Shown here one piece after another: positions 4,218-61,930 of a stretch of DNA of 64,000 bases. The stretch is from positions 1-64,000 of the forward strand of contig WHTJ01000004.1 of the NCBI GenBank assembly GCA_009377795.1. The letters run 5' to 3'. Below the pieces are notes generated by a model. It was not told where the DNA came from, searched no databases, and saw nothing but the letters and a program-made list of their open reading frames with translations. Source of the stretch: Propionibacteriales bacterium. GTDB taxonomy: Bacteria; Actinomycetota; Actinomycetes; Propionibacteriales; Nocardioidaceae. Within the stretch, counting starts at the first letter, position 1, and each line of letters opens with the position of its first letter. The position numbers and the translations under genes were made by a program.

Positions 4218-4326
4218 CGCGTGCCTCCGGTGCGCGTCCGCAGAACGCCCACGGCGATCTCATCCGCGCCTGCCCAGATCGTGACAGCGGCACCGGTGGA
4301 TGTCCAGATCCAGCAGCCACACTCGT

Positions 4327-4378
4327 GCCGAGGTTGCACATCTGGCCGACCCGGGTGGGCCAGATGTGCAATCTCGGC
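4327..4378. repeat. Interspersed palindromic repeat, family 1
   Basis: Arms of about 21 bp (GCCGAGGTTGCACATCTGGC on the left and its near-complement on the right, one mismatch) surround a short GC centre. It lies between the SRPBCC gene and the antiporter gene, both on the minus strand. Related copies lie at 20429-20480, 34447-34507, 36384-36433 and, degenerate, 37274-37301. No T-run follows. Confidence 0.85.
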
Positions 4379-4398
4379 GCGAAGGGAGTGTGCAGGAC

Positions 4399-4869
4399 CT
4401 AGCGCCCCTCCACGATCTCGGCCAACCGGTCCATGGTCTCGCTCGCGCCCTCCTGCATCCCGGACTGGACCATGCCGTCCCGGTCCTCGACCGACTGGAA
4501 GACCGACACAGCGACGTACTGCGTCTTCCCGTCGACCTCCTCCAGGGTGAGCGTCTCGAGCGACACCTGACCCGGCGCTCCTTCGAACTCGAAGGTCTGT
4601 ACGACGCGCTCCGGCGCCGCCACGTCGTGGATAACGCCTCTGAAGCCGTACTCCTCGCCGTCGTCGCCGCGGCTGACGAATCGCCAGCTCCCGCCCGGCC
4701 TGACGTCCGCGCGGTCGACGACGGTCTCGTACTTCGCCGGTCCCCACCAGTTGGGGATGAGGTCCGGGTCCGTGACAGCCTTGAACACGACGTCTCGCGG
4801 CGCGTCGTAAACCCGCTTGATGATGATGTCCTGCCTGCCTGGCTCGATGATGAACTCCGTCTCACTCAA
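4399..4869 (-). CDS. SRPBCC / AHSA1-type protein
   Basis: 156 residues of the START-like (SRPBCC, activator of Hsp90 ATPase homologue 1) fold. The usual motifs are present: an N-terminal strand RVYDAPRDVVFKAVTDP, then NWWGP, RPGGSWRFVSR, and the C-terminal helix MQEGASETMDRLAEIV. The exact ligand is unknown for this family. The start is placed at TTG (4869). This codon overlaps the stop of the ArsR gene and fits the domain boundary, and a purine-rich GGAAAGGG lies upstream. ArsR plus AHSA1 pairs with overlapping ends are common in actinobacteria, so the two are almost certainly co-translated. Confidence 0.88.
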   Translation of the reverse strand: MSETEFIIEPGRQDIIIKRVYDAPRDVVFKAVTDPDLIPNWWGPAKYETVVDRADVRPGGSWRFVSRGDDGEEYGFRGVIHDVAAPERVVQTFEFEGAPGQVSLETLTLEEVDGKTQYVAVSVFQSVEDRDGMVQSGMQEGASETMDRLAEIVEGR

Positions 4870-15184: not shown

Positions 15185-15239
15185 GCGTGGCGCGTTCTGG
15201 CCGCGATCTGGCAATCTTCCGAGCCAGAACGCGCCACGC
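15185..15239. repeat. Interspersed palindromic repeat, family 2
   Basis: Perfect 17-bp arms, GCGTGGCGCGTTCTGGC and its complement, with a 21-bp centre. It lies at the convergent junction between the DUF4439 gene and the M43 protease gene. Relatives lie at 24826-24917 and 54464-54520. It could form a strong bidirectional hairpin; no T-run follows on either strand. Confidence 0.85.
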
Positions 15240-19418: not shown

Positions 19419-19434
19419 TAGGCTGACCGGCGTG
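19419..19434 (+). promoter_or_regulatory. Candidate leaderless promoter of the aldo/keto reductase gene
   Basis: TAGGCT (TANNNT) at 19419-19424 ends 7 nt before the GTG at 19432, and no Shine-Dalgarno sequence is seen. This suggests a transcript beginning at the start codon. Inferred. Confidence 0.4.
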
Positions 19435-20412
19435 GAGTACGCCAACCTTGGTTCGTCCGGTCTGAAGGTGTCCCGGATCTGTCTGGGCATGATGAGCTAC
19501 GGCGATCGGGCGCAACGCGAGTGGTTCCTGGACGAGGCGGCGGCCGAGCCGATCGTACGCCGCGCGGTCGAGTCCGGCGTGACGTTCTTCGACACCGCGA
19601 ACGCGTACTCGGACGGTGTCAGCGAGGAGATCACCGGCCGCCTGCTCCCCAAGCTCTTCCCGCGGCGGGAGGACTACGTGCTCGCGACCAAGGTGTACAT
19701 GCCGATGGGTCCCGGACCGAACGACCGCGGGCTCTCCCGCAAGCACATCATGGCCGCCATCGACGCCTCGCTCAGCCGGCTGGGCCACGACTACGTCGAC
19801 CTGTACCAGATCCATCGCTGGGACTACGACACTCCGATCGAGGAGACCATGGCGGCGCTGCACGACGTCGTAGAGGCCGGGAAGGCCCGCTATGTCGGCG
19901 CCTCCAGCATGTTCGCCTGGCAGTTCGCGAAGGCGCAATACACCGCCGAGGCGGCCGGCCTGACCCGGTTCGTGTCGATGCAGAACCACTACAACCTGGT
20001 CTATCGCGAGGAGGAGCGGGAGATGATCCCGCTGTGCGTCGACCAGGGCGTGGGCATCATCCCCTGGAGCCCGCTCGCCCGCGGCCTGCTCACCGGAACC
20101 CGCGAGCGCGGCGGTCCGCCGCAAACCGTCCGGGCGGGCAACGATGGGTTCGCGGAGCGGATGTACGACGACGCCGACTTCGACGTGGTCGAGGCCGTAC
20201 GCGCGGTCGCGGATCAGCGCGACGTGCCTCCCGCGCAGCTCGCGCTGGCGTGGCTGCTCCGTCAGCCGAACGTGGTCGCGCCGATCATCGGCGCGACGAA
20301 GGAGAGCTACCTGGACGACGCGGCCGCCGCGGTCGAACTCACGTTGACCGATGACGAGGTCGAGCGGATGGAGGCGCCGTACCGGCCGCACCCGATCCGC
20401 GGCCACTCCTGA
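19432..20412 (+). CDS. Aldo/keto reductase
   Basis: 326 residues, an (alpha/beta)8 NADPH-dependent oxidoreductase of the YajO/YghZ-like group. Conserved features are [19 protein letters not shown] at the start, [13 protein letters not shown] (catalytic D and Y of the DxxxxY motif), K in LATKVYMP, H in [14 protein letters not shown], and the cofactor end [12 protein letters not shown]. The physiological substrate is not predictable. The GTG at 19432 gives the family start ([10 protein letters not shown]). The gene is oriented away from proS and is followed by a family 1 palindrome that could end the transcript. Confidence 0.92.
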
Positions 20413-20428: not shown

Positions 20429-20480
20429 TTCGCACCGAGATTGCGCGTCTGGTCGACCAGATGTGCAATCTCGGCGCGAA
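20429..20480. repeat. Interspersed palindromic repeat, family 1
   Basis: A 52-bp near-perfect palindrome centred on GGTCGACC, with arms TTCGCACCGAGATTGCGCGT on the left and GATGTGCAATCTCGGCGCGA on the right. It lies 16 bp after the aldo/keto reductase stop and upstream of the manganese riboswitch. It is a close relative of the perfect copy at 36384-36433. Confidence 0.9.
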
Positions 20481-24825: not shown

Positions 24826-24917
24826 CGTTGCGCGGCGCGAAATGGCTGCCAGATCTCCGAAATCACAGCCAGAACGCGCCACGCGAATTGCGACAGCAGC
24901 CAGTTCGCGCCACGCGA
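24826..24917. repeat. Interspersed palindromic repeat, family 2, composite copy
   Basis: The left arm (GCGCGGCGCGAAATGGCTG) is followed by two copies of the complementary arm, AGCCAGAACGCGCCACGCGAA (24867-24887) and AGCCAGTTCGCGCCACGCG (24897-24915). Either can pair with the left arm. The element lies between ispG and the GNAT gene. Confidence 0.75.
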
Positions 24918-34446: not shown

Positions 34447-34507
34447 TTTCGCGCCGAGGTTGCACTTCTGGTCGCCTCCAATCGGCCAGATGTGCAATCT
34501 CGGCACG
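34447..34507. repeat. Interspersed palindromic repeat, family 1
   Basis: The left arm TTCGCGCCGAGGTTGCACTT and right arm GCCAGATGTGCAATCTCGGC flank a longer, less symmetric centre than the other copies. It starts 3 bp after the aminotransferase stop, at the convergent junction with the endonuclease V-like gene, so it could fold in both transcripts. Confidence 0.85.
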
Positions 34508-34527
34508 ACCAGGGAGTGTGCCCAGGC

Positions 34528-35269: not shown

Positions 35270-36382
35270 ATGACCGCCGAACTCGAGCTCAGCCTGGACG
35301 ATCCGTACACCGTGCCCACCCGATGGTGGCATCGGCTGGACGACGGCCGGATCCAGTGCGACGTCTGTCCACGGGCCTGCCGCCTGCACGAGGGCCAGCG
35401 GGGTCTGTGCTTCGTGCGCGCGCGGGTGGACGACCAGGTTGTACTGACGTCGTACGGGCGATCCTCCGGATTCTGCGTCGACCCGGTGGAGAAGAAGCCG
35501 TTGAACCACTTTCTTCCGGGCAGCGCGGTGCTGTCGTTCGGAACCGCCGGCTGCAACCTCGCCTGCAAGTTCTGCCAGAACTGGGACATCTCCAAGTCGC
35601 GAGAGATCGACACGCTGGCCGACGCGGCATCACCGGACACGCTCGCGGCGCTCGCCGACCGGGCCGGATGCCGCAGCATCGCGTTCACGTACAACGACCC
35701 GGTGATCTTCTGGGAATACGCCGCGGACGTCGCGGATGCCTGCCGGGAACGCGGGATCAGGTCGATCGCGGTCACCGCCGGTTACATGTGCCCGGAACCG
35801 CGGGCCGAGTTCTACCGGCACATGGACGCCGCCAACGTCGACCTCAAGGGCTTCACCGAGGAGTTCTACCACCGCACGTGCGCCGCGCACCTGGACGACG
35901 TGCTCGACACCCTGCGCTATCTCCGGCACGAGACCGGCGTGTGGTTCGAGATCACCACGCTGCTGATCCCCGGCCGCAACGACTCGGACGAGGAGGTCGA
36001 CGCCGAGACCCGGTGGATCGCGCAGAACCTCGGACTCGAAATGCCGCTGCACTTCACGGCGTTCCACCCCGACTACAAGATGATGGACGTGCCGCCCACT
36101 CCACCGGCCACCCTCACCCGGGCCCGCCGGATCGCGATGGCCAACGGCCTGCGGTACGTCTACACCGGCAACGTGCATGATCAGGAGGGCGGTACGACGT
36201 ACTGCGCGGGGTGCGGGGCGACCGTGGTGGTGCGCGACTGGTACCAGATGCGGCGATACCGGCTCACGGACGACGGCCGCTGCCGCTCGTGCGGGCACCC
36301 GGTCCCCGGTGTGTACGACGGCCCGGCCGGGCACTGGGGCGATCGCCGGCTTCCCCTCACCGTGGCGGGGATAGCGCACTGA
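35270..36382 (+). CDS. AmmeMemoRadiSam-type radical SAM enzyme
   Basis: 370 residues, similar to pyruvate formate-lyase activating enzymes. The [4Fe-4S] motif is CNLACKFC (C95, C99, C102). The N-terminus carries a short Cys motif (CDVCPRACRLHEGQRGLCFV), and the C-terminus adds a zinc-ribbon-like region (CAGCG, CRSCG). The family name derives from co-occurrence with AMMECR1 and MEMO proteins, but no such genes are seen here. The natural reaction is unknown. ATG at 35270 after GGAGCAG; a TACCGT box lies about 26 nt before the leader. The next gene also uses SAM. Confidence 0.9.
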   Translation: MTAELELSLDDPYTVPTRWWHRLDDGRIQCDVCPRACRLHEGQRGLCFVRARVDDQVVLTSYGRSSGFCVDPVEKKPLNHFLPGSAVLSFGTAGCNLACKFCQNWDISKSREIDTLADAASPDTLAALADRAGCRSIAFTYNDPVIFWEYAADVADACRERGIRSIAVTAGYMCPEPRAEFYRHMDAANVDLKGFTEEFYHRTCAAHLDDVLDTLRYLRHETGVWFEITTLLIPGRNDSDEEVDAETRWIAQNLGLEMPLHFTAFHPDYKMMDVPPTPPATLTRARRIAMANGLRYVYTGNVHDQEGGTTYCAGCGATVVVRDWYQMRRYRLTDDGRCRSCGHPVPGVYDGPAGHWGDRRLPLTVAGIAH

Positions 36383-36383
36383 C

Positions 36384-36433
36384 TCGCGCCGAGATTGCAC
36401 ATCTGGTCGACCAGATGTGCAATCTCGGCGCGA
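36384..36433. repeat. Perfect 50-bp palindrome, family 1
   Basis: TCGCGCCGAGATTGCACATC followed by TGGTCGACCA and the exact reverse complement of the first 20 bases: 25-bp arms with no mismatch and no loop. It lies 1 bp after the radical-SAM stop and 28 bp before the SAM hydrolase gene. Perfection implies recent copying or ongoing correction. No T-run follows. Confidence 0.95.
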
Positions 36434-36448
36434 AGGAATGGAGTGACC

Positions 36449-36464
36449 TAGTCTGCCGGGCATG
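36449..36464 (+). promoter_or_regulatory. Candidate leaderless promoter of the SAM hydrolase gene
   Basis: TAGTCT (TANNNT, 36449-36454) ends 7 nt before the ATG at 36462; there is no Shine-Dalgarno sequence. Placed directly behind the perfect palindrome, it would give the gene its own transcript. Inferred. Confidence 0.42.
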
Positions 36465-37274
36465 GCGCCGTACCGCTGCATCGGGTTTCTCACCGACTAC
36501 GGGCTCGAGGACGCGTTCGTGGCGGCCTGCCACGGGGTCATGATCGACATCGCGCCGCGGGCCCGCATCGTCGACATCACCCACCTGGTCCCGCCACAGG
36601 ACGTCCGGCGGGGCTCGGCGGTGCTGACGAGGGCGGCGCCGTACCTCGCGCCCGCCGTGTTCGTCGCGGTGGTGGACCCCGGGGTCGGCGGCGATCGCAG
36701 GCCGGTGGCGATCGAGGCGGGCGACTCGGTGCTCGTGGGTCCGGACAACGGCCTGCTGATCGATGCCGCCGAGGCGCTCGGCCCGATCACGGCCGCCGTC
36801 TCGTTGGACAACACCGCATGGTTCCGGCAGCCGGTCTCGGCGACGTTCCACGGCCGCGACGTCTTCTGCCCGGTGGCGGCCCATCTGTACGCCGGCCGGC
36901 CGTTCTCGTCCGCGGGTACACCGATCGACCCGGCGACCCTCGTACGCCTGCCCGCACCGCATCTCGTCGTCTCCACCGACTCCGTGGAGACGGAGACGAC
37001 CTACGTCGACCGCTTCGGGAACGTCCAGCTGTCCGCCGGAGCGGATCGTCTGGACGCGCTCGGGTTCACCGACGGCACCGCACTCACGATCGCGGGTCCC
37101 GGCGCGACGGTCACCGCCGTCGCGGGCGGACGGTTCGACTCCGTGGACGTGGGCGGTGTCGTGGTGTACGCCGACTCCGACCGGCGGATCGCGATCGCGG
37201 TCAACCAGGGACGGGCCGACGAACTGCTCGGCGTACGGCCCGGAGCCGTCCTGCGCATCACCCGCGCGCCATAG
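36462..37274 (+). CDS. SAM hydrolase / SAM hydroxide adenosyltransferase (DUF62)
   Basis: 270 residues. The N-terminal motif FLTDYGLEDAFVAACHGVM, then ARIVDITHLVPPQDVRRGSA, VDPGVGGDRRPVAI and GPDNGLL identify the DUF62 family related to fluorinase. Non-halogenating members split SAM to adenosine and methionine with water. The C-terminal domain has YVDRFGNVQLSA. Whether it halogenates cannot be decided by eye; the ordinary hydrolytic form is far more common. ATG at 36462. Its TAG is followed directly by a degenerate family 1 repeat. Confidence 0.9.
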   Translation: MAPYRCIGFLTDYGLEDAFVAACHGVMIDIAPRARIVDITHLVPPQDVRRGSAVLTRAAPYLAPAVFVAVVDPGVGGDRRPVAIEAGDSVLVGPDNGLLIDAAEALGPITAAVSLDNTAWFRQPVSATFHGRDVFCPVAAHLYAGRPFSSAGTPIDPATLVRLPAPHLVVSTDSVETETTYVDRFGNVQLSAGADRLDALGFTDGTALTIAGPGATVTAVAGGRFDSVDVGGVVVYADSDRRIAIAVNQGRADELLGVRPGAVLRITRAP

Positions 37275-37301
37275 TCGCGCCGCCCCCAGATCTCGGCGCG
37301 A
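37274..37301. repeat. Degenerate family 1 repeat (deletion derivative)
   Basis: Only the ends remain: TCGCGCCG (37274-37281) and CTCGGCGCGA (37292-37301), with 10 bp between. It sits on the TAG stop of the SAM hydrolase gene. It can still form an 8-bp hairpin. Confidence 0.65.
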
Positions 37302-37389
37302 AAAGGGCTTGACCGCCAGAGAGGTCGTGTCGGCGCCGGTCGCGACCGCCACCACGAGCCGGTTCACGACGACACCCTCTCATCCCGGT

Positions 37390-37445
37390 CGAGTGTGACG
37401 TTCTCGACGGGACGCGCCGGCGGGTCTGCCGAAAACGTCACGGTC
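37390..37445. repeat. Interspersed palindromic repeat, family 3
   Basis: The left arm GAGTGTGACGTTCTCGACGG and right arm CCGAAAACGTCACGGTC form an imperfect inverted repeat of about 25 bp each side. It lies at the convergent junction between the SAM hydrolase and DCC genes and overlaps the DCC stop by 2 bp. A sister copy lies at 61860-61914. Confidence 0.75.
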
Positions 37446-37821
37446 ACCGCTGGCCGGGCAGGCGGCACGTCGGCGTGCCGCCGGGGAGCCGGTGCCGGTT
37501 GCGGGCGATCAGGCGGTACGCAGGGTCCGCCGCCCGCAACGCGAGCGGCAGTGCGAGCACCCGGCCGATCAGACGCCATACAGGCCCGCCACTGGAGCGC
37601 AGGAACCCGGCGAGCGCCAGCGGGCCGCCCACTGGCCGCTCCCCCGCATCCACCCACTGCACCGACTCCCGACACGCGGTCTCGGTGAGCCCGAGCTCCT
37701 CGAGGTCCAGCCGCTGCCAGGGCTCGACCGCGGCCACCGTCGGCACCCATCTGACGAGCAGCCTCGCGGTCGACGAGCAGAAGGCGCAGTCGCCGTCGTA
37801 CACGAGGACCGGGCGCATCAT
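37444..37821 (-). CDS. DCC-type thiol-disulfide oxidoreductase (DUF393)
   Basis: 125 residues. The family motif DGDCAFCSS (DGxCxxC, residues 9-17) is at the N-terminus, followed by [20 protein letters not shown] and a C-terminal basic tail. DUF393/YuxK-like proteins resemble thioredoxin-fold thiol oxidoreductases; the partner is unknown. The ATG at 37821 overlaps the rlmN stop (ATGATG), so translation follows rlmN. It is the last gene of the rpsB-to-rlmN block. The second ATG one codon later is equally possible. Confidence 0.88.
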
Positions 37822-54463: not shown

Positions 54464-54520
54464 TGTGTGGCGCGTTCTGGCGGGCAAATCAGACACCGCT
54501 CCGCCATTTCGCGCCACGCA
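54464..54520. repeat. Interspersed palindromic repeat, family 2
   Basis: The left arm TGTGTGGCGCGTTCTGGCGG and right arm CCGCCATTTCGCGCCACGCA (54501-54520) match as an inverted repeat at about 16 of 20 positions. The 3 to 4 differing bases are exactly where the two arm types of this family (GTTCTGGC and GAAATGGC) differ. Located between the KH gene and rimM. Confidence 0.75.
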
Positions 54521-54530
54521 ATGCGGACCT

Positions 54531-54670
54531 CCGACCGCCTACCGGCGGTCTACGTCGACGCGGCGTCATCTGCTTCGTCTCCTCCGACCGCCTACCGGCG
54601 GTCTACGTCGACGCGGCGTCATCTGCTTCGTCTCCTCCGACCGCCTACCGGCGGTCTACGTCGACGAAGT
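54531..54670. repeat. 53-bp tandem repeat duplicating the end of the KH gene
   Basis: Three units at 54531, 54584 and 54637, each starting CCGACCGCCTACCGGCGGTC and continuing TACGTCGACG; the last unit is the 3' end of the KH gene and breaks off after TACGTCGACG. The first two copies appear identical. On the minus strand each carries AGGAGA and an ATG 8 bases later. Confidence 0.9.
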
Positions 54671-54884
54671 CGACCCGCGCGCCGCCCTTGCCGGCCAGTG
54701 CGCTGATCACAGTGCGGAAGGCGGTGGCCGTACGGCCTGAGCGGCCGATGACCTTGCCCAGGTCGTCGGGATGCACGCGCACCTCGAGCAGCCGGCCGCG
54801 GCGGGTGTTCTTGGACCGGACCGTCACATCGTCGGGGTGTTCGACGATGCCCCTCACCAGGTGCTCCAGCGCCTCGGCCAGCAC
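54645..54884 (-). CDS. KH-domain RNA-binding protein (KhpA/YlqC-like)
   Basis: 79 residues, one type-II KH domain: EALEHLVRGIVEHPDDVTVR, then RLLEVRVHPDDLGKVIGRSG with the GxxG-like GRSG loop, and TATAFRTVISALAGKGGARV. KhpA pairs with KhpB in small-RNA regulation and cell-length control in Gram-positives. The GTG at 54884 lies 2 bp after the rpsP stop codon. Order rpsP-khpA-rimM-trmD-rplS is conserved. The last 30 bases of the gene are the last unit of the 53-bp tandem repeat. Confidence 0.94.
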   Translation of the reverse strand: MLAEALEHLVRGIVEHPDDVTVRSKNTRRGRLLEVRVHPDDLGKVIGRSGRTATAFRTVISALAGKGGARVDFVDVDRR

Positions 54885-54886
54885 GC

Positions 54887-55498
54887 TCAGGACTCGCCGT
54901 TCTCTTTGGAGTCGGAGCCGGCCGGAGCCGGCTCGTCGCCCTTGGGCTCGTCGGTCTTGGGCTCGTCCGCCGTACTCGCCTCGTCCGCCGTACTCGCCTC
55001 GTCCGCCGTACTCGCCTCGGCGGACGTCTCGCTCGCCTCCGTGGCGGTCGCCTCCGTGGCGGTCGCCGCGCCCTTCTCCTCGGCCTTGGCGTCGGCCTTC
55101 GCGGCCTTCGTGGCCTTCGAGGTCTTCTTCGGCGTGGTCGCCCGCGACTTGGGCTCGCCCGTGGCGTCCTTGAGCGCCTCGTTGAAGACCTCGGTCTTGT
55201 CGCGCTTCGTCTCCGGTACGCGCATCGGCTCCGGAGCCGCCTCGCCCTTGAACTGCTGCCAGTCGCCGGTCACCTTGAGCAGCGCGGCCACCGGCTCGGT
55301 GGGCTGGGCGCCGACGCCGAGCCAGTACTGCGCGCGCTCCGAGTCGACGTGAATCGTCGACGGGTCGGTCTTGGGGTTGTAGGTCCCGATCTCCTCGATC
55401 ACGCGGCCGTCGCGCTTCTTGCGCGAGTCCACGACCACGACACGGTAAAACGGCGTACGGACCTTGCCCATACGCTTCAAGCGGATCTTGACGGCCAC
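54887..55498 (-). CDS. rpsP: 30S ribosomal protein S16 with extended acidic tail
   Basis: 203 residues, more than twice the usual 80-90. The S16 core ([20 protein letters not shown], then [20 protein letters not shown], and [20 protein letters not shown]) is intact to about residue 90. After a Lys/Ala linker ([20 protein letters not shown]) the tail becomes Glu/Thr/Ala/Ser-rich. It contains three exact 18-bp repeats (54963-55016) encoding STADEA units and 15-bp repeats near 55036-55066. GTG start at 55498. The tail must project from the 30S body. First gene of the rpsP-khpA-rimM-trmD-rplS cluster. Confidence 0.95.
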
Positions 55499-61842: not shown

Positions 61843-61859
61843 ATGACCACCACCCCGTT

Positions 61860-61914
61860 GAGTGTGACGTTTTCACCGGGACACGCGAGCGTGTCCGTCG
61901 AAATCGTCACACTC
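61860..61914. repeat. Interspersed palindromic repeat, family 3
   Basis: GAGTGTGACGTTTTCACCGG (61860-61879) and, as its near-complement, CCGTCGAAATCGTCACACTC (61895-61914), around the shorter inverted pair GACACGCG/CGTGTC. It lies between glnB and glnD. The sister copy is at 37390-37445. It could fold in the amtB-glnB-glnD message and reduce glnD expression. Confidence 0.8.
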
Positions 61915-61930
61915 AGCGGCCGGGCCGTCT

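Follow-up and report, generated by a model that had tools for sequence, protein, structure and literature searches.

A REP-like repeat family with helically phased spacing at gene 3′ ends in two actinobacterial genera whose assemblies hold no RAYT

The closest described counterparts of the repeat reported here are REP and REPIN sequences, which occur in hundreds of intergenic copies as singlets and inverted doublets at lineage-specific sites, the doublets having preferred lengths and compensatory changes (PMC3116915, PMC3733652). REPs lie close to the 3′ ends of unidirectional and convergent ORFs, and a CGTC-tagged group has been reported without a dedicated transposase (PMC3733652). The usual explanation for REP-like repeats is that a RAYT enzyme acts on single-stranded hairpins. 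We describe here a REP-like family (family 1) found in two actinobacterial genera without a RAYT, with a spacing that appears to be set by the B-DNA helix. It resembles REP, BIME, and REPIN sequences in number, placement, and turnover, and its inverted doublets likewise keep to preferred spacings and have arms that covary. In contrast to REPs and REPINs, it has no RAYT, no GTAG-tagged hairpin, and no palindromic single unit; it forms directional tandem arrays of ~32 bp, its pair lengths step by one helical turn, and a block of five variable bases (N5) is largely limited to complementary swaps. Since the palindromic single unit, the GTAG or CGTC tag, and the RAYT are all lacking, we did not file the family as REP. 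The CGTC-tagged REPs also differ, as they are short palindromes mostly from α-proteobacteria, whereas the family 1 unit is not a palindrome and carries no recognized CGTC tag. A search of open-licence papers returned nothing directly relevant on such repeats in actinobacteria.

The family was noticed in a stretch of 64,000 nucleotides (the window) of the source genome, hereafter G000 (4.58 Mb in 182 contigs, 96.8% complete; 69.4% GC in the sampled DNA). The initial annotation described five related copies located between genes, most of them close to a stop codon. All five are present, with edges slightly shifted from those first given, all five are intergenic, and their proximity to stop codons was borne out. 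The first (4323 to 4382) is a 60-bp inverted pair with N5 = CATCT in its arms, lying 16 nt after the stop of a minus-strand gene (4399 to 4869). The second (20430 to 20479), a 50-bp inverted pair with one diverged arm, lies 17 nt after the stop of a plus-strand gene (19432 to 20412), and the third (34449 to 34508), an inverted pair of 60 bp, sits between convergent genes, 5 and 19 nt from the two stops. The fourth (36384 to 36433), which starts 1 nt after the stop of a radical SAM gene (35270 to 36382), is a palindrome perfect over the full 50 bp, as had been claimed. It consists of two head-to-head units, TCGCGCCGAGATTGCA-CATCT-GGTCG, which overlap at GGTCGACC; the 16-bp core TCGCGCCGAGATTGCA of the left arm occupies 36384 to 36399 and its N5 block CATCT (an SWWSW word) 36400 to 36404, both on the plus strand, while the core of the right arm occupies 36418 to 36433 on the minus strand. 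The fifth, said to have lost its center, is indeed a 27-nt remnant of a decayed pair (TCGCGCC...AGATCTCGGCGCGA, 37275 to 37301), found directly (0 nt) after the stop of a SAM hydroxide adenosyltransferase gene (36462 to 37274). No T-run follows the copies, no transposase lies nearby, and the window has no Rfam match. The genes flanking the copies are ordinary: apart from the radical SAM and SAM hydroxide adenosyltransferase genes, they encode a Na/H exchanger, AHSA1, aldo-keto reductase, GDT1, class-III aminotransferase, endonuclease V, and a DCC1-like protein.

The palindrome and its relatives are real, but the repeating unit is one arm (about 26 to 32 nt) and not the palindrome. Elsewhere in the genome, single arms and direct tandem arrays of arms are present as well. 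Within the window, the arm has eight matches with up to three mismatches, as compared to 0.03 expected by chance. The consensus built from sampled G000 DNA (842 kb, later 1.2 Mb) is a directional unit of ~32 bp, comprising about four to six pyrimidines, TCGCGCCGAGATTGCA, N5, and GG(C/T)CG; no GTAG or CGTC tag is conserved at the unit ends in the base table of G000 units. The first 30 G000 loci included single units, direct tandems, and head-to-head pairs, and single units accounted for 33 of the 85 clusters in the first G000 sample. In the genome G009 (98% complete), from a different genus in the same taxonomic family, the units have diverged to TCGCGCCGAGGTTGCA-C(G/T/A)TATGTCCC, recur every 32 bp, and likewise follow stop codons. 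Direct neighbors are spaced by 31 to 33 bp in both genomes.

Statistics combine whole-genome pattern searches with samples of 1.2 Mb from G000 and 0.9 Mb from G009. A search of the whole genome and of its relatives revealed hundreds of copies in G000, mostly intergenic. The 14-mer GATTGCACATCTGG has 158 exact matches in G000 and its reversed control none; with up to three mismatches, the family 1 pattern gave 494 matches in G000 (reversed control, 4) and 266 in G009 (control, 5), and the other 293 genomes of the family were at background. Inverted pairs were absent, with none above background, among 394 other genomes sampled from the class (a sample that did not contain G009), and an exact 21-mer had no match in 84,980 species genomes. 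A looser pattern run across species genomes returned, among the matches listed, at least five single matches, which is about chance level. One genome, G305, was considered as a third carrier owing to a slight enrichment in the pattern count but was rejected, as it has no inverted pairs.

Placement was evaluated against genes called with a simple codon-usage script, for which starts are approximate and stops reliable. Units with at most one mismatch were intergenic in 174 of 186 cases in G000 and in 144 of 144 in G009, in samples that are each 87% coding; most of the G000 exceptions fall in a few called genes, some of them possibly false calls. Among gaps of at least 20 nt in G000, 57 of 492 codirectional ones contained units, as did 36 of 122 between convergent genes and 13 of 169 between divergent genes; the corresponding fractions for G009 were 25/305, 25/79, and 10/141. 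Near-exact units, at least 92% of them intergenic, typically lie ~10 to 15 nt after the stop codon, with a median distance from the TCGC end to the stop of 14 nt in G000 and 18 nt in G009. Their orientation is biased as well: in codirectional gaps where all units point one way, the TCGC end was directed at the stop in 31 cases and at the start in 9.

The variable block follows SWWSW in G000, and its deviations from CATCT amounted to 149 complementary swaps, 13 transitions, and 6 other changes, while the 16-bp core of the same units showed 48 transitions, 16 complementary swaps, and 4 others. When each distinct N5 word was counted only once, 33 of 45 were complementary (p = 6e-8, G000). The SWWSW rule was not seen in G009. 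Base pairs that only swap strands (C↔G, A↔T) leave the minor groove nearly unchanged, and for this reason the pattern fits a reading of the N5 stretch through the minor groove by a putative protein.

The two arms of a pair tend to agree with each other. They share N5 in 22 of 31 G000 pairs (permutation mean 6.4, maximum 15 in 20,000), and direct neighbors do so in 6 of 22. Furthermore, pairs fall into subfamilies, each with its own loop (GGTCGACC; GGCCGAC...GTCGGCC; GGTCGATCT.AGATCGACC). Thus, either pairs are copied as pairs or the arms correct each other. No excess of the flanking direct repeats that a target-site duplication would leave was found at 44 G000 pairs. To compare sites between the genera, we used 187 reciprocal best hits between G000 and G009 (median protein identity, 69%). 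Of 166 comparable gene tails, 5 carry units in both genomes, 23 in G000 only, 10 in G009 only, and 128 in neither; at two codirectional junctions that are syntenic and carry a G000 unit, the G009 genes are just 0 and 12 nt apart. Copies have therefore been gained or lost after the genera split. In a separate case (locus L184, positions 8588 and 10627 of G000 contig C27), two family 1 pairs ~2 kb apart share the left flank and most of the right one, and thus a longer local duplication copied the element.

Inverted pairs are spaced in register with the DNA helix. In G009, where all inverted pairs with intact cores were collected by a genome pattern search, the outer lengths of adjacent pairs were 39, 48 to 49, 57 to 61, 68 to 71, and 78 to 80 bp, with nothing between. 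With 30 pairs, the vector strength R at 10.5 bp was 0.82; restricted to the 17 pairs with distinct loops, it was 0.85. Near 10.2 to 10.5 bp, R reached 0.82 to 0.87 (p < 1/20,000 versus jittered sets); these p-values treat pairs as independent when some belong to subfamilies, yet the distinct-loop test holds. The fitted period was 10.3 bp (bootstrap 95% CI, 9.9 to 10.8), and a sampled set allowing mismatches agreed with the phasing. In G000, pair lengths are almost entirely 50 and 60 to 62 bp, one turn apart, with core-to-core spacings of 33/43/44 in inverted doublets; this genome alone offers few independent length classes, with a collapsed p of about 0.01 to 0.1. Together, the whole-turn pair lengths and the direct spacing of 31 to 33 bp suggest a protein on double-stranded DNA, and the N5 block, restricted almost to C↔G or A↔T swaps, likewise points to a reader of double-stranded DNA. 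These data point to a spacing set by the B-DNA helix; whole-turn steps are not something that RNA or single-stranded hairpins would explain.

The initial annotation had proposed REP-like units moved by a RAYT-type protein. The likeness stands, with high copy number, intergenic location at gene 3′ ends, and genus-specific sites, but neither G000 (96.8% complete) nor G009 (98% complete) contains a RAYT. A search for a RAYT or IS200-type gene flanked by the repeat ends yielded only an unrelated IS200/IS605 element. The sole Y1 locus of G000 is a frameshifted IS200/IS605 tnpA beside tnpB with unrelated hairpin ends (CCCCGGACTTCAGTCCGGGG), and that of G009 is of the same tnpA-tnpB type, with no family 1 unit in the 3.4 kb examined around it. 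The G000 element (L031, C26:2172-5381) comprises the frameshifted tnpA and a tnpB-like ORF and lies next to an IS3-type integrase ORF that seems intact. As the motor, a RAYT or any other Y1 enzyme was rejected for these assemblies, although the enzyme could sit in the missing few percent. A transposon bounded by units was rejected as well, as only host-type genes lie between units in the sampled DNA (1.2 Mb from G000, 0.9 Mb from G009), and within the same samples, no autonomous parent element with family 1 ends was detected. Inspection of divergent gaps for a self-regulating DNA-binding gene near the units revealed no common theme.

A RAYT-free family with helix-set spacing makes a double-strand-binding protein the natural suspect. 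We tentatively favor the view that family 1 is a REP-like repeat without a RAYT, whose units are phased sites for a putative double-stranded DNA-binding protein, dispersed downstream of stop codons. The palindrome would be two head-to-head copies of the directional ~32-bp unit, each unit binding a sequence-specific protein that reads double-stranded DNA. The bound protein may contact neighboring units along the same face of the helix, perhaps cooperatively, and such contacts would account for direct units lying three turns apart and inverted pairs differing by whole turns. By a copying mechanism that probably takes inverted pairs as pairs, the units would disperse and be gained and lost in the manner of other REP-like interspersed repeats. 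They would survive mainly beside gene 3′ ends, where insertion harms least. Cooperatively bound phased operator arrays are similar in having direct sites three turns apart and inverted sites whole turns apart, but family 1 differs from them in its hundreds of copies at gene ends rather than promoters and in that its protein is putative. One observation runs counter to a pure protein-site model: shared N5 in the arms is not required by it and fits hairpin selection or whole-pair copying too. The lack of the SWWSW rule in G009 and the small number of independent length classes in G000 also weigh against the favored view. Protein bound at gene 3′ ends could also be a polar roadblock or boundary, with a possible effect on transcription. 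The fuller version, in which the putative protein on phased, oriented ~32-bp arrays would block or insulate transcription with polarity at sites spread by RAYT-free copying, is comparable in principle to repeated terminator-protein sites, and we regard it as improbable. The family is relevant to the origin and persistence of dispersed palindromes, and to the question of whether some bacteria rely at their gene ends on bound proteins instead of RNA hairpins.

Two alternatives invoke a hairpin. Pair-wise copying or arm correction is the best argument for a REPIN-like, non-autonomous element whose hairpin doublets would be mobilized in single-stranded form by a RAYT or a different Y1 transposase, since lost or missing from the assemblies. 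The doublets, with their discrete lengths, recurring loop subfamilies, and covarying arms, do resemble REPINs (PMC3116915), the units lie beside the 3′ ends of unidirectional and convergent genes as REPs do (PMC3733652), and their sites differ between genera. However, a RAYT is lacking from both genomes, each of which has one Y1 locus that belongs to an IS200/IS605 element with unrelated ends; one unit alone does not form a significant hairpin, direct tandem arrays are frequent, and whole-turn spacing is left unexplained by single-strand recognition. This origin seems unlikely. Hairpin terminators, as suggested at first, leave the single and direct-tandem units unexplained, since these fold no better than shuffled sequence (z-scores of −0.76, +0.77, and −0.50 for three single units). 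Paired units reach folding energies of −40 to −54 kcal/mol, with z-scores of about −9 to −12. Strong folding of pairs just after stops and the covariation of their arms would suit transcription terminators or mRNA 3′-end stabilizers of the I-shaped type, that is, a long hairpin without a U-tract. The pairs, but only they, share with actinobacterial I-shaped intrinsic terminators a long, GC-rich, U-run-free hairpin just after the stop; in contrast to these terminators, family 1 repeats the same primary sequence in hundreds of copies, many unpaired, at positions that are not conserved. Single and direct-tandem units, a large share of the clusters, cannot form a hairpin, and RNA gives no expectation of a helically phased pair length. 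In addition, some syntenic junctions with a G000 unit have only 0 to 12 nt in G009, and the unit is therefore not an ancestral operon terminator there. We consider the terminator explanation unlikely.

Two further alternatives were weighed. Inverted ends with phased lengths, multiple copies, and lineage-specific sites could be expected if family 1 were a MITE-like element served by a cut-and-paste DDE transposase, with copies so short that their ends would need to be in helical register. No target-site duplication was found around family 1 pairs, no unit-flanked gene looks like a transposase in the 2.1 Mb sampled from the two genomes, lengths of 39 to 50 bp leave little room for paired-end synapsis, and direct arrays stay unexplained, all of which makes this origin quite doubtful. 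A genome-wide signal for DNA uptake, chromosome segregation, or recombination would agree with the high copy number and with a fixed motif that has inverted pairs downstream of genes. Uptake sequences share these last two features and are also located in genes. Near-exact family 1 units, however, are almost absent from coding sequence, and the unit is far longer than such signals, so a role of this kind is very improbable.

Other repeats accompany family 1. A second palindromic family, GCGTGGCGCG-(TTC/AAA/AAC/TTT)-TGG...CCA...CGCGCCACGC, usually 55 bp long, has window copies at 15185 to 15239, 24830 to 24884 (plus 24906 to 24915), and 54465 to 54519; its arms pair completely (TTC/GAA) or have a three-base mismatch (TTC/TTT), and exact pairs number 17 in G000, with none among 55 relatives. 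A third family, CCCG(T/G)TGAGTGTGACGTTTTCGAC...GTCGAAAACGTCACACTCA, occurs in the window at 37384 to 37449 and 61853 to 61918. In G009, it forms 16 loci (L217 to L232) with nearly identical 51-bp cores, each having a pyrimidine flank on its left side and a purine flank on its right; like family 1, it is common to G000 and G009, and it is absent from 54 other relatives. Further palindromes lie at gene 3′ ends in G009 (L201, L172, and L092; for example, TTTTGGTACGGGGGCGCCCCGTTCCA...TGGAACGGGGCGCCCCCGTACCAAAA), one of them at a junction where G000 has a family 1 pair. Last, the window contains tandem repeats at 54528 to 54686, with a 53-nt unit (two exact copies and a partial one), and at 54962 to 55033, with the 18-nt unit CTCGTCCGCCGTACTCGC.
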